DNA of 54,993 nt. It comes from Natronorubrum daqingense (GTDB lineage Archaea; Halobacteriota; Halobacteria; Halobacteriales; Natrialbaceae). Of the stretch, positions 7,662-50,585 are shown one piece after another; the stretch's first letter is position 1, and each line of letters begins with the position of its first letter. The stretch is taken from the NCBI RefSeq assembly GCF_001971705.1, contig NZ_CP019330.1, positions 1 through 54,993 on the forward strand, written 5' to 3'. The position numbers and the translations under genes were made by a program. Below the pieces are notes generated by a model. That model saw only the letters and a program-made list of their open reading frames with translations, made no database searches and had not been told where the DNA came from.

Positions 7662-8693
7662 ATGAAATTCCAACGCTTCGCAGCGACAGCGATGGCTGCA
7701 CTCATGATCCTCTCGGTTATGGGCGCAGCGTTCGCAGGCACCGCAGCAGCAGACGAACATCACATCGAACTCGAGCTCGACGACGAAGACATCATCGACG
7801 AGTTCGAGGCCGACAGCGACCAGGAGATCGAGGCGACGATCGACGCCGACGGCGCTGACTTCGGCGAGGATGACACCGACACGCTCACCCTCAACGTGAC
7901 CGACGATGACGACCGCGAACACTTCGAACTCGAGGCGTCAGTCGACGACGGTGACGAAGACCACACGGTCGAATTCGACGCGTCGGACCTCGCAACGGTC
8001 CCGATCGACGCTGAGGACACGACCGACGTGACTGTCCACGTCACTGGCGAAGACGCCGACGGCGAGACGACGGACACCAGCGAGGAGGCTGACGTCGAGC
8101 TCGAGAGCACCAACGAGTACGCTTCGATGTACGTCGACGACGATGACGCTGAGACCGAGACCGACGAAGCCGGTATCGGCACGTCGACGCTCGATATGGT
8201 CTCCTTCGGCACGCTTGCCGACTCGGACGACACGGACATCTACACGCTCGAGGACGAGGTCGGCGTTGATGGCGACAACACGACGATCGCCGCTCACGAT
8301 GGCACCGGCGCGGACGCGTTCGACGACGCCGTCGATACGGACGACCTCTCGAGTGGCGACCTGATCACGGACGCCAACGCAGCCGTTGATGGAGACGCCG
8401 TGATGATGTTCTACGACGACGCAGACGACGATATCGTCGACGACAACGACACCTACGTCGTGATGGAGGACTACGACGAGTTCAGCGTTGAACTCGGTGA
8501 CGACCACGAGGACGCCGAGGACGTTGACGTGACGCTCGAGTCCCAGAGCTACGTCGACGCTGGCGTCAGCGCTGACGAGATGGGCGCGCTCTACCTCGAG
8601 CAGGCTGACTTCGGACTCTTCGACGCAACGTCTGAGTTCGGCGTGCTTGACGCGTTCAGCGGCTTCAGCGCGATGGAACTTCTCGGCCTCTAA
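7662..8693 (+). CDS. Sec-exported highly acidic protein
   Basis: This 343-residue protein has a classical Sec signal (FQRFAATAMAALMILSVMG, cleavage near TAAA-DE). The mature chain is extremely rich in Asp and Glu and has beta-strand-like periodicity typical of haloarchaeal surface proteins. No C-terminal anchor or PGF-type sorting motif is seen, so it may be released or held by partners. The family was not recognised. A structural envelope role is inference. Confidence 0.8.
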   Translation: MKFQRFAATAMAALMILSVMGAAFAGTAAADEHHIELELDDEDIIDEFEADSDQEIEATIDADGADFGEDDTDTLTLNVTDDDDREHFELEASVDDGDEDHTVEFDASDLATVPIDAEDTTDVTVHVTGEDADGETTDTSEEADVELESTNEYASMYVDDDDAETETDEAGIGTSTLDMVSFGTLADSDDTDIYTLEDEVGVDGDNTTIAAHDGTGADAFDDAVDTDDLSSGDLITDANAAVDGDAVMMFYDDADDDIVDDNDTYVVMEDYDEFSVELGDDHEDAEDVDVTLESQSYVDAGVSADEMGALYLEQADFGLFDATSEFGVLDAFSGFSAMELLGL

Positions 8694-24133: not shown

Positions 24134-24520
24134 TTACGAGTTTCGTCGCGCCTCGAGTAGGAGTTCTGCTACGCGGTCGGGTTCTTCGATAGCTAACCGA
24201 AGCACCGCGTCATGTGTCTCTCGCATTTCTTCGTCCACAACATCAGCCTCCGCGAGTTTCGGTCCAATTCGAGTCCGGAACGTTTTCTCGAATTCAGACC
24301 ACGTCTTATCGCGAGCGTAGAGCGGCCGCTGACGTACTTCGGAGTATTCGAACGCCGGGCCAGTCTCAGATGGCGGTAATTCGGCGTCTGGTTCGGGCTC
24401 TGGTTCGCTGGGTTCAGTTGGACTCGATTCGATAGCCGACGCTTCAGCGTCTTCTTGTGCGTCAGGCTCGCTCGATTCGTCCGTGTCGTCGCTCTCGAGG
24501 TCGTCGAACGGATTCGTCAT
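24134..24520 (-). CDS. putative ParA partner (centromere-binding candidate)
   Basis: This 128-residue protein lies directly downstream of parA with an ATGA overlap. The first 60 residues are an acidic, Glu/Pro/Ser-rich linker. The C-terminal half is helical and charged (RQRPLYARDKTWSEFEKTF, then DRVAELLLEARRN). It has no canonical ParB domain. Position and size fit a small type Ib partition partner that would bind the 25.5 kb repeats; that is inference. Confidence 0.55.
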   Translation of the reverse strand: MTNPFDDLESDDTDESSEPDAQEDAEASAIESSPTEPSEPEPEPDAELPPSETGPAFEYSEVRQRPLYARDKTWSEFEKTFRTRIGPKLAEADVVDEEMRETHDAVLRLAIEEPDRVAELLLEARRNS

Positions 24521-25401
24521 CGGTCCACCCCTCCGTTCGAGACGATGGTCGCGAGTTCCTCGTAGTACTCGATTTGGTCGCTGTCGGGTTTGTAATCCTG
24601 CAACGGTTGGTTCTCGCTCAGTGAGCGAGAGAGGGCAGCCCGAGCACGGATTCCCGGCTTGGGTGTCTCGATTTCGCCCGCGTCAATCTGGTCGAATTCC
24701 TCGCTCGAGATGCGAGCGAAATTCGGTACGACCGATGGGAGTTCCTCGCCGGGATTGACTTCGTAACTGGCCGTATTCAGGTTCTCGAGCAGTTCTCTAT
24801 CCTCAGTTTGCTGGTCGATCCGATCCTCGAGTTTGTTCGGGACGATGGCGAGTACGTCCACGTCGATGTACTCACGGGCGGGTTCGATGAGCCGCTCCAT
24901 CGTGCGTTGGTACCCACCGATAGCGCTCGACCCCGGCTCGATCGGGATGATGACGTTGCCCGTCGCGACGAGTGCGTTGTTGTTGAGCATTCCCGGATAC
25001 GCCGGGCAATCGAACACGATGTACTCGTACTCGTCTCCCAGTAGCGGGTCGACGATTTTCTGTTTGATTCGCGCCGAGCCTTGCATTGCCCCTTTGAGAT
25101 CATCTTCCACGTCCTCGAGCGTGTTTGAGGATGGGAGAAGATCAAAGCCGAACTCGGTCGGTTCGATGAGATCACCTGGAGTTGAGTTGCCCTCGAGAAT
25201 GACGTCGCCGATGTCCGTGTCACCACGGTAGACCGATCCGAATCCGAGCCCATTCGTCGCGTGACCGTTCGGGTCCAGATCCGCGAATAGGACGTTACCA
25301 TGCTCTGCGAGCTGGCGAGCGAGATTCATCGACGTGGTGCTTTTCCCGACGCCGCCTTTCAGGATGACGACGCTCACTGCACGTGGGTCTGTGTCTGCCA
25401 T
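24517..25401 (-). CDS. parA: ParA/Soj-type partition ATPase
   Basis: This 294-residue protein drives segregation of the replicon. The deviant Walker A motif KGGVGKSTT is at residues 15-23, an FADLDPNGHATNGLG motif (Walker A') follows, and YIVFDCPAYPG matches Walker B. ATG 25401 is chosen over 25431 because it gives the usual short lead-in. It has no N-terminal HTH, as in type Ib ParA. The 9-bp repeat array lies just upstream. Confidence 0.92.
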   Translation of the reverse strand: MADTDPRAVSVVILKGGVGKSTTSMNLARQLAEHGNVLFADLDPNGHATNGLGFGSVYRGDTDIGDVILEGNSTPGDLIEPTEFGFDLLPSSNTLEDVEDDLKGAMQGSARIKQKIVDPLLGDEYEYIVFDCPAYPGMLNNNALVATGNVIIPIEPGSSAIGGYQRTMERLIEPAREYIDVDVLAIVPNKLEDRIDQQTEDRELLENLNTASYEVNPGEELPSVVPNFARISSEEFDQIDAGEIETPKPGIRARAALSRSLSENQPLQDYKPDSDQIEYYEELATIVSNGGVDR

Positions 25402-25434
25402 TGTATCTGACTCCGCCCGTCGCAAGTCCAATAG

Positions 25435-25645
25435 GTACCTATTGTGCTACTGAAGCTTGTTTCAACGGGCAATTAGTATATCTCCAAAGTGTTACTTAAT
25501 GCTACCTCTTACGACTGTAATAGCTGGTGTAGCTACTGTACCTATTACAGCTACTGCACCTATTACACCTATTGGGACTACTGAGTCTGGTGTATCTATC
25601 GGGACTGGTGGAACTGGTGAGTTTATTGTAGCTACTCAGGAGGAG
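25435..25645. repeat. array of degenerate 9-bp repeats, candidate parS or iterons
   Basis: From about 25511 to 25640 the sequence moves in 9-base units such as GTAGCTACT, GTACCTATT, ACAGCTACT, GCACCTATT, ACACCTATT and GGGACTACT, with CT at positions 5-6 and T at 9 nearly fixed. Two more units (GTACCTATT GTGCTACTG) lie at 25435-25452 near the parA start. The plus frame through it encodes only low-complexity triads, so it is more likely non-coding. Location upstream of parA suggests a centromere. Confidence 0.65.
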
Positions 25646-25824
25646 TAGGAGTCAGTGGCGGCAGAGCCGCCCCAGTTGAATCTGGTATTTTGACAGCCAA
25701 CTAGTGTTGGCGTGTGAAGGTACATGCGTTGGGAGGATAGATGTTGTGCCCCGAGAGTGCACCTGCTACTCTTCAATGTCGCAATGTAACGTGCGCGCGC
25801 TTCATTCACATGGGGTTGTGGAAG
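25646..25824. other. intergenic region without a clear gene
   Basis: These 179 bases follow the repeat array. I see an alternating CG stretch (GTGCGCGCGC, about 25791-25800) and no convincing frame. Confidence 0.3.
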
Positions 25825-26334
25825 CTATGTCGGTCGTAGGTAATCCGTTATTGGTTCGTAGACCTCTCCCTTCTGTTTGAGTTTCTCTATTTCATGTTCA
25901 GCCTTCGAACGGTCCATCCCAATATCTGCTGCCCGCTCAAGGATTACTTCAACAGGAGCACCTTCGTCATACTCCAATTCTATGTCTGAGATTAGTTCCT
26001 TGATGCTCTTGATTCGCTCTCCTTGATCCCGATCCTGGTCACCGATAGTAAATCGAATTGGTGTAGTTACGTTCACCTCTTCGTCGAAATCGTCATCAAT
26101 ATCTTTCTGTAATTTATCTGGGGTACAAGTCACGTTGAATGCCTTCCCCTTTAGAGTCACCGTCACTCGGCATTCGAACGGGATTTTTTCGTCGACTTTC
26201 TCAAGAACTTCGTGCTTGGCTTCGGCGCGGAGGCGTTCAGCACGATCTTCGTGATCCGTTGCTATCTCGAGTTTCTGAAAGGGGCCCGAGCCAACATCAG
26301 AGTTAGAACTCTCTTCTGATTTGTTTTCGGCCAT
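25825..26334 (-). CDS. protein with MCM-type C-terminal winged helix
   Basis: This 169-residue protein has an acidic N-terminal half with a strand-rich segment (CRVTVTLKGKAFNVTC). The last 65 residues read like the C-terminal winged helix of archaeal MCM helicase: SIKELISDIELEYDEGAPVE, then AADIGMDRSKAEHEIEKLK and GEVYEPITDYLRPT. There is no AAA+ core. It could bind DNA or act as a decoy or recruiter at the replication machinery. Assignment rests on remembered MCM family patterns. Confidence 0.65.
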   Translation of the reverse strand: MAENKSEESSNSDVGSGPFQKLEIATDHEDRAERLRAEAKHEVLEKVDEKIPFECRVTVTLKGKAFNVTCTPDKLQKDIDDDFDEEVNVTTPIRFTIGDQDRDQGERIKSIKELISDIELEYDEGAPVEVILERAADIGMDRSKAEHEIEKLKQKGEVYEPITDYLRPT

Positions 26335-32054: not shown

Positions 32055-33116
32055 CTACTCGTCTTCGAGGTATTCGACCGACACAACGTGTTTCTCCCGG
32101 TACTGGTGCTCGCTGTCGTTAATGTCGGTCTCCGATTTCAGCGCCTTGCGGGTGAACTCTTCCCACAGGTCGAACGCTTCGGTGACGAACTCGTCAATCT
32201 CGTCTTCGGTTGGGTCGTCGAGCATCTCTTTCGCTCGAGCGCGTTCGTCGTTGCGATTCGGGAGTCGGGTGTCGTCGCGGTCCTTGACGAACACGCGCGG
32301 GTTGATGTGAATGGGTTCCTGTGAGAGGTCGGGGGGATAGTAGTTGCCCTCCTCGCTGTAGTAGATCGATGCGTCAGTTGTCGATTCGAACGGCGGCGTC
32401 ACTCGAAGGACAGCGGCTCGGCGGTTCGTGTACTCCGGCGGTTGGTTGTTGAATCGAAGCGCTTCGATCAAGTCGTCGACTGGCACCCGAACCGTGTTGA
32501 TCCGGTTGCGTGGGTCAGATAGGATCTCTTTGGCCTGATTGACGTTTTTCGATACACTCTGTTGGCTACAGCCACGAGCCTCGGACCACTCCGATTGCGT
32601 CCGGCCGCGTTCTTCGACGGCGTAGTAGTCGATTGCCTCGGCGGGACTCAATCCAGACTCGAGCAGTTCGGTTAGCTCGTCGAACGTCGGTTCGGCTTCG
32701 TCGGCTGGCTGGCCGCCGTCGGTCATTAGCCGACCATTGTCTTCCTCAGGAGGTTTAGAGTTGAACGCACGCTGCGCCTCAATCTGCTGGGCCTGTCCGG
32801 CTGCTTTCTGGTATCCGTCGTCTTTAACGTGTTCGTTCGTCGGCTCCGCGCGGTTCTCGTCGTTAGAAGACTCGTCGTCGGTTTCGTCGGCTTCGTCATC
32901 GCCAGGTGCCTCGAGCACTTCCTCAACGTCGAAGTTCTTCATGTGCTTGTGACCGCCGTACTCGCCAACGAACGAAACGGAATCGCCGGTCTCCTCGGGG
33001 ACGAGATCGTCATCGAGTTTGTCGATCGCGCTCGTGGGGACAGGGTACGCGCTTCCCCCGTCGAACTGCATTTCGTAGTGATCTTCAGTCTTGGTGACGC
33101 TGATTTCCTGAGTCAT
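32055..33116 (-). CDS. acidic protein with HTH, regulator-like
   Basis: This 353-residue protein has an N-terminal beta domain (about 1-65), a long acidic linker (to about 150), then an HTH-like segment (GLSPAEAIDYYAVEERGRTQ, then WSEARGCSQQSVSKNVNQ) and a C-terminal domain with aromatic residues. The HTH tail matches the end of the 33223 gene (GLTPGQAWAYYGVE). Its promoter carries an imperfect inverted repeat at 33126-33176. Confidence 0.62.
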   Translation of the reverse strand: MTQEISVTKTEDHYEMQFDGGSAYPVPTSAIDKLDDDLVPEETGDSVSFVGEYGGHKHMKNFDVEEVLEAPGDDEADETDDESSNDENRAEPTNEHVKDDGYQKAAGQAQQIEAQRAFNSKPPEEDNGRLMTDGGQPADEAEPTFDELTELLESGLSPAEAIDYYAVEERGRTQSEWSEARGCSQQSVSKNVNQAKEILSDPRNRINTVRVPVDDLIEALRFNNQPPEYTNRRAAVLRVTPPFESTTDASIYYSEEGNYYPPDLSQEPIHINPRVFVKDRDDTRLPNRNDERARAKEMLDDPTEDEIDEFVTEAFDLWEEFTRKALKSETDINDSEHQYREKHVVSVEYLEDE

Positions 33117-33125
33117 CTTTCTTCT

Positions 33126-33176
33126 ACAACCATAGGTAGTACCGCCGAGTACTTATACCTTACTACTATAGGTTGT
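33126..33176. promoter_or_regulatory. imperfect inverted repeat upstream of 32055-33116
   Basis: ACAACCATAGGTAGTA (33126-33141) faces TACTACTATAGGTTGT (33161-33176). The arms match at most positions. The GTAGTA core is shared with the 34188 repeat. The AT-rich centre (ACTTATACCTT) may contain the TATA box. Confidence 0.45.
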
Positions 33177-33222
33177 AATGTGGCCCAGGTGGTATGATGA
33201 TACAGTAGATCCGCCCAGCCGG

Positions 33223-34179
33223 TCACGGCAGTTTCTGCTTCGCCTTCTCGAGTGCGTCCGAGACGTTTTTGTGATCGTGGTCGCCTTTTCGGTTCCCCCA
33301 GCGATTCTGGGAGTTGCCACGAATTTCGACGCCGTAGTACGCCCATGCCTGTCCTGGGGTGAGCCCCCTGCGCTGGAGGCCGTTTACGATTGCCTCGACG
33401 TAGTCTTGGCCGTCGTCGACACCATCGGGCTTGCGGGCGACGAAGGGGTACGAGACCGACCAACTGTAGTCACACCGTTCGCGTGCCAGCTCGTGGTGGA
33501 TCTCCGTGACGATCGACATGGCGATATCGCCCACTTCAAGATCGCCATCGTAGAACTCGAGTTCTTCTGCAACGCTGTTGAAGTCACCAGTCGAAAGGAC
33601 GACGGTGCTACCGTCCTCGTAAACGACTTCTGCGCTGGCATCTTCGATTTGATCCATGTAGACATCCCAGGCCTCTTCGGCACACTGCTGGACCCACGCA
33701 AGTAGGTCGCGGATTTCGTCGACAGTCCAGGCGTCTGGGTGGTCTGGGCCGTCGTTGCTGTTGATTGCGCTCTCGATCGTTTCGTCGTCAACGTGTGCGG
33801 TGATGTCTTCGCCGCCGTCGGTGACGATATCCTTCTCGCCGTTACTATCGTCTAGTCGTCGGATGTCGTCGATAATCTCGCACGTTGTGTGCGTCTTCCA
33901 GGCCTCGCACGTTTCGTATTCGAGCGTCGGTGAGAATCGACCGTGTCCGTCGTCGTCGATCGTGATTTTTGCATTGCGCTTGTCGTCGATTTCGAGATGA
34001 ACGACGCGGCGCACGACGTGGCCCTCGGAATCGAGGTCCACAACGTCGAAACCAGTCACAGTGGCTTTGACGCACCCTGTTTCGGCCACAACCTCAACTT
34101 CTGTGCCGGTGGTGTCTGCGTACAGGTCGGCGATTTTCGCTTCGGTGCTGTCGTCGGTGGTGAGTTTACCAGTCATCAT
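33223..34179 (-). CDS. acidic protein with C-terminal HTH-like tail
   Basis: This 318-residue protein has an N-terminal beta-rich region (about 1-120), a central acidic segment, and a C-terminal HTH-like tail similar to that of 32055-33116 (RGLTPGQAWAYYGVEIRGNS). The related pair suggests duplication with diverged fronts. The inverted repeat 34188-34238 lies just upstream. Function is unknown. Confidence 0.6.
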   Translation of the reverse strand: MMTGKLTTDDSTEAKIADLYADTTGTEVEVVAETGCVKATVTGFDVVDLDSEGHVVRRVVHLEIDDKRNAKITIDDDGHGRFSPTLEYETCEAWKTHTTCEIIDDIRRLDDSNGEKDIVTDGGEDITAHVDDETIESAINSNDGPDHPDAWTVDEIRDLLAWVQQCAEEAWDVYMDQIEDASAEVVYEDGSTVVLSTGDFNSVAEELEFYDGDLEVGDIAMSIVTEIHHELARERCDYSWSVSYPFVARKPDGVDDGQDYVEAIVNGLQRRGLTPGQAWAYYGVEIRGNSQNRWGNRKGDHDHKNVSDALEKAKQKLP

Positions 34180-50237: not shown

Positions 50238-50585
50238 GGCGCTCGTCAGTCACATTTTAGGACCGTCTCCGTATTCAATCCAGCGACTCGAGTAGCAACC
50301 ATCTCACTGCGTACAACTCGCCTGTATTCTCCCCCTAAACTACGGGCAATTCCCCAGTAGCTTATCCGCTTATTTCGGGCACTATACGGGTTTGTTCCCG
50401 GTACTTTCATGTAGTAGGGAGTATTTGTAATTGGTAACAGGTCATCGCCACGGTAATCGTCCTGAAACGGGGCCGGAATGACCGGACTCGGCCTGAAGGC
50501 AGCACCCTTGAGGGTGGCCGGTTGGCGAGGCTTTCCGACCGGTAAAACGGTTGGAAAAACAATCAGCTACGCTTCTCCCAAACCC
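50238..50585. other. intergenic region upstream of 50586
   Basis: 348 bases without a clear gene. The frame from 50478 is open but its first 36 residues look non-native, so this part is likely leader. ACCGGTAAAACGGTTGG near 50538 is a short interrupted inverted repeat. Confidence 0.3.

Follow-up and report, generated by a model that had tools for sequence, protein, structure and literature searches.

The window, i.e. the whole stretch of DNA that was analysed, is one entire contig of 54,993 bp in a genome of four contigs, and is therefore most likely a complete plasmid. A two-gene operon for a ParA ATPase and a small partner protein lies on its minus strand, together with three sequence elements (Table 1). 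The ParA protein has no N-terminal DNA-binding extension, since the PF13614 domain begins at residue 8 and the Walker motif KGGVGKS occupies residues 15–21. Its ATG start fits those of relatives, the longer alternative being a TTG at 25431. The partner is built of an NPFDDL N-terminus, an acidic linker and a C-terminal folded domain. An ATPase without N-terminal domain, a small partner gene downstream and repeats upstream, the latter presumably acting as the centromere, correspond to a type Ib ParA system.

Table 1. Coordinates of the features of the par locus (positions in the window).
Feature	Position	Strand	Evidence or remark
Partner of parA, 128 aa, predicted centromere-binding protein	24134–24520	-	ATGA overlap (4 bp) with parA
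parA, 294-aa Walker ATPase, type Ib-like	24517–25401	-	PF13614 AAA_31, E 1.3e-28
Inverted repeat enclosing the palindrome	25415–25425 / 25460–25470		Also in some relatives, where compensatory variants occur
18-bp palindrome ACAATAGGT/ACCTATTGG (read from 25445 to 25428)	25428–25445	-	Two inverted units in 9-bp register, just before the parA ATG
Candidate centromere (parS), 15 contiguous degenerate 9-bp units	25504–25638	-	Periodicity, matrix scores, conservation in relatives

Between parA and the next gene, the parA (minus) strand can be read as 15 consecutive 9-mers, from TGAGTAGCT at 25638 to GTAAGAGGT ending at 25504, with the consensus RNAATAGST (ASCTATTNY on the plus strand). The initial annotation had placed a degenerate 9-bp tandem array here, with units sharing CT at positions 5–6 and T at position 9. 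The array is indeed present, and the shared letters are the complement of a near-invariant TAG/CAG core. In a plasmid-wide scan, the top period-9 peak of the 55 kb was found at 25529–25636 (IC 7.15, z 8.4), and the region upstream of parA gave a z of 12.7 at period 9 against dinucleotide shuffles. These two results exclude a chance origin. Moreover, when all 9-mers of the plasmid were scored with a unit matrix trained only on other species, from the neighbours of their AATAGGT sites, the seven best units of the array outranked 99.8% of them. Tandem Repeats Finder called 25528–25573 only, which is the least degenerate part of the array. Dyad symmetry within single units (p<0.05 in 24 of 76 arrays) is suggestive only.

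Signals were also obtained elsewhere on the plasmid. The next-best period-9 peak (8424–8531) is located inside an ORF rich in GAC codons. A strong intergenic period-11 signal was detected at 50298–50407 (z 7.5), where Tandem Repeats Finder reported no array. Three unit-like high scorers, ACCATAGGT, ACTATAGGT and ACAGTAGAT, are found on the plus strand at 33129, 33165 and 33202, that is with spacings of 36 and 37 bp; they lie between the ORFs at about 32055–33116 and 33178–34179 or where these begin, and are possibly regulatory.

Two further units had been noted at the parA end, and these correspond to the 18-bp palindrome. The same palindrome occurs in 37 of 50 close-clade loci, 31–68 bp ahead of parA, and is likely an operator for autoregulation. 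The enclosing inverted repeat and its compensatory variants were observed in the window and in relatives (L007, L028, L035 and L038). Its inner arm is close to the GGAG that precedes the parA ATG, suggesting that the repeat may act as an mRNA hairpin that controls translation. A palindrome of two units at the parA promoter, and the fact that known centromere-binding proteins double as autorepressors, are also compatible with the array being nothing but an extended operator, on which many partner dimers would regulate parA while the real centromere would be located elsewhere. However, fifteen units placed about 100–240 bp upstream of parA are far beyond the needs of repression, and the array is the strongest period-9 signal of a plasmid on which the scan revealed no second period-9 array. 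We therefore regard this reading of the array as unlikely.

Of 391 genomes sampled from the class, 151 encode ParA relatives, and a scan of viral contigs detected none. An array was scored as present when the 450 bp upstream of parA displayed the period with z>3 against dinucleotide shuffles. The search in other haloarchaeal par loci proposed by the initial annotation was clearly positive: a period-9 array was observed in 86 of 92 distinct loci of the first set and in 38 of 40 more distant, held-out loci (mean excess information 3.09 bits at period 9, with values near 0 at the other periods), i.e. in 124 of 132 when both sets are pooled. The six exceptions of the first set are L048, truncated upstream, L056, L064, L067 and L069, in which the signal is weak or short, and L088, which is described below. 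Over 90 loci, the mean excess at period 9 was 2.90 bits, and periods 7, 8, 10 and 11 stayed within -0.09 to 0.05 bits; control stretches gave 0.7 bits at period 9, and simple autocorrelation peaked at 9, 18, 27 and 36 only. No excess at period 7, that of omega-type heptads, was found in haloarchaeal loci of either set. The array was always upstream of parA.

The unit sequence varies between clades while the 9-bp spacing is constant. Arrays were detected on pNRC100 (unit ATACTATTC, z 19.5) and pHS3 (unit TCTACTGTG, z 12.5) of Halobacterium, on pHTUR02 (z 11.5) and on pSVX82-3 of Haloferax lucentense (z 7.7), and a second par locus of the same genome as the window (L002, contig C2) has its own 9-bp array of different sequence. 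These replicons show that the spacing is kept when the sequence changes. The parA-partner-array cassette was also encountered on chromosome-sized contigs of 2.5–4.2 Mb (L016, L022, L038, L040, L050, L107, L113 and L123–L126), where either a plasmid has integrated or the cassette is a partition locus of the chromosome in a polyploid archaeon.

As 9 is a multiple of 3 and a small ORF of the plus strand (25457–25648) is open across the array, the periodicity could be that of the codons of a small repetitive protein, with three residues per unit. Coding DNA, however, gives equal small values at periods 6, 9 and 12, whereas the haloarchaeal loci have an excess of about 0.4–0.6 bits at periods 6 and 12, like coding sequence, against 2.9 bits at period 9. 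Furthermore, no more than 37 of 88 arrays fall within an ORF of at least 60 aa, as expected for a short repeat, and a second family of loci has a period of 13 (see below). The ORF 25457–25648 has no Pfam match and no conserved reading frame was seen across the relatives. A codon origin of the period is very improbable.

The partner encoded in the window belongs to a family, here called A, whose members share a C-terminal domain (about 73 residues) in which F, Y, E, A and R occupy invariant positions, and an acidic linker before it that varies in length. A partner of this kind is found downstream of parA in all loci but one, the operon overlap is nearly universal, and an F.DL-type motif is present near the partner N-terminus in 125 of 132 loci. 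The exceptional locus, L088 (G234:C6), is a natural chimera of a family A ParA and another partner, and a search with this partner retrieved relatives (family B) in 124 of 381 haloarchaeal genomes. The family B loci examined, which fall in the L156–L219 range (e.g. L164, L165, L171 and L183), adjoin another ParA subfamily with the Walker motif SEAGGVGK, mostly with a 4-bp overlap. Upstream of parA in 23 of these loci, the mean excess information was 3.48 bits at period 13 and 0.16 at period 9. In 36 held-out loci the values were 3.60 bits at 13 versus 0.11 at 9, with the peak at 13 in 31 of them. The subgroup formed by L169, L173, L187 and L192 (Walker motif SESGGVGK) has period 12.

The two genes of L088 were assigned separately. 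Its ParA is nested in family A (51% identity to L055, about 32% to family B), and its partner matches family B with an E value of 4e-16 and family A without significance. The L088 array has period 13 (IC 7.62, the highest value among 300 shuffles being 6.70; z 6.0), with a z of -2.1 at period 9. Because a family A ParA is here associated with a 13-bp array, the period follows the partner and not ParA in this locus, the one natural ParA/partner swap that was found, and this is what is expected if the partner binds the array. At the haloviral ParA loci of phiCh1 and ChaoS9, which have other partners, no clear 9-bp array was detected upstream. In these two loci (L150 and L149, respectively) the gene after parA encodes a different small protein, whose sequence, similar to KNVNMYLPEDLVEEL, resembles ribbon-helix-helix N-termini.

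The dependence of the period on the partner also bears on the idea that the array is an iteron-type replication origin to which an initiator protein would bind. Such an origin would fit the short direct repeats beside a plasmid backbone gene and the Orc1 genes found near parA on pHS3 and pHTUR02. However, no replication gene is constant beside the array, which stays with parA whatever the other neighbours and has the period of the parA partner. An origin function is thus very improbable. The operon structure, the universality of the partner and a period that changes when the partner family does, as seen cleanly in one swap, point instead to the family A protein of the window as the probable ligand of the array. 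The gene at 25825–26334 was ruled out as the array binder because it is not a constant neighbour of par loci in the relatives.

The family A partner matches no Pfam, NCBIfam or PHROG family, and among 196 genomes sampled from the phylum it was detected in the window's own order only. AlphaFold (AF2) models of two members (pLDDT 93 and 92) contain an extended segment at residues 9–15, devoid of intramolecular pairing partner, followed by three helices. A ribbon-helix-helix monomer would look like this in such models. No PDB relatives of the partner were found by sequence or Foldseek, neither Foldseek nor VIA gave a clear match for the ribbon-helix-helix likeness (the VIA rows are weak, with Z of 3.3 or less), and hhalign of the partner to the RHH_1 proteins of the same genome gave a probability of 0.2%.

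Two proposals concerning sequence recognition did not hold up. A rule linking the partner strand QxPxYAR to the AATAG core was highly significant in the first set (Mann-Whitney p 3e-13) and failed in the held-out loci, where AKQRPLYAR partners are accompanied by TAGCTG-like arrays, contrary to the rule. The k-mer similarity of the arrays correlated with the similarity of their partners (partial r 0.27 given ParA). A control stretch of parA coding DNA behaved likewise (r 0.37), so that the co-variation does not rise above phylogeny.

Several known partition systems resemble the present one in part. The delta/omega system of pSM19035 from Firmicutes likewise combines a small ParA without N-terminal domain, a small site-specific partner and contiguous short units in either orientation, and at least four contiguous heptads are required there for full ParA activation (PMC9499535). 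It differs in its units, which are heptads instead of 9 bp (or 13 bp), in its non-archaeal host and in its partner, the haloarchaeal protein, which carries an FDDL motif and an acidic tether, being of an unrelated-looking family. Plasmid R388 (stbDR/StbA) also possesses arrays of a 9-bp direct repeat, which are located in the operon promoter and required for plasmid stability (PMC3098194). Those repeats are however spaced by two bases (period 11), whereas the units described here are contiguous, and the ParA-like StbB is dispensable for stability, whereas the present array lies beside an orthodox ParA. In view of these heptads and 9-bp repeats with 2-bp gaps, the contrast that had been drawn with iterons of 11–20 bp was overstated. 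Among archaea, SegAB of Sulfolobales has a ParA, a small site-specific partner downstream and sites upstream of the operon (PMC5120986, PMC12284271), but SegB reads the 13-bp palindrome TCTAGASTCTAGA at scattered single sites (PMC12284271) and not contiguous 9-bp units, and the general searches with the partner brought up no resemblance to SegB. The archaeal plasmid pNOB8 also relies on a small DNA-binding protein for partition, which spreads from a site upstream of its own gene (AspA-ParB-ParA; PMC5120986). That system differs by its three proteins, its single 23-bp palindrome and its gene order. Contiguous units of 9 or 13 bp are absent from the pSM19035, R388 and SegB systems as published. 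A review of archaeal genome segregation lists archaeal plasmid centromeres and multi-replicon segregation in halophilic archaea as open questions (PMC5120986), and no description of haloarchaeal parS arrays was found in the openly searchable literature, subscription papers and preprints being outside the scope of this search.

The array is a real and conserved centromere candidate of the ParA/repeat-centromere kind, associated with unnamed partner families. A candidate centromere beside ParA and a small partner, as initially annotated, is supported by the conserved position and spacing, by an operator of like unit and by the switch to 13 bp with the partner. We consider it very probable that the array serves a ParA-type partition system as its centromere (parS), with the palindrome as operator for the same regulator. 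By analogy, the system would best be read as working like the contiguous heptad centromere of pSM19035. Dimers of the partner C-terminal domain would each occupy one unit and line the array side by side. The N-terminus with its FDDL-type motif, carried on an acidic tether, would touch nucleoid-bound ParA-ATP and trigger ATP hydrolysis, the cargo would then trail ParA across the nucleoid, and plasmids would reach both daughter cells. On the 18-bp palindrome, the same partner would repress parA and its own gene.

A broader proposal, whose chances we judge to be evenly balanced, is that haloarchaea possess at least two unnamed families of centromere-binding proteins, each with a fixed unit length (9 bp for one; 13 bp, with a 12-bp offshoot, for the other) and with a unit sequence that drifts freely between replicons. 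The proteins would constitute a structurally new class that binds side by side, and the drift would prevent interference between the several plasmids of a cell. If the centromere reading of the array is true, haloarchaeal plasmids, pNRC100 and pHS3 of Halobacterium salinarum among them, would have centromeres that can be recognised directly in their sequence, the length of the unit would indicate the centromere-binding family in use, plasmid compatibility could be predicted and tested, and the array would provide a short cis element for stabilising haloarchaeal vectors.
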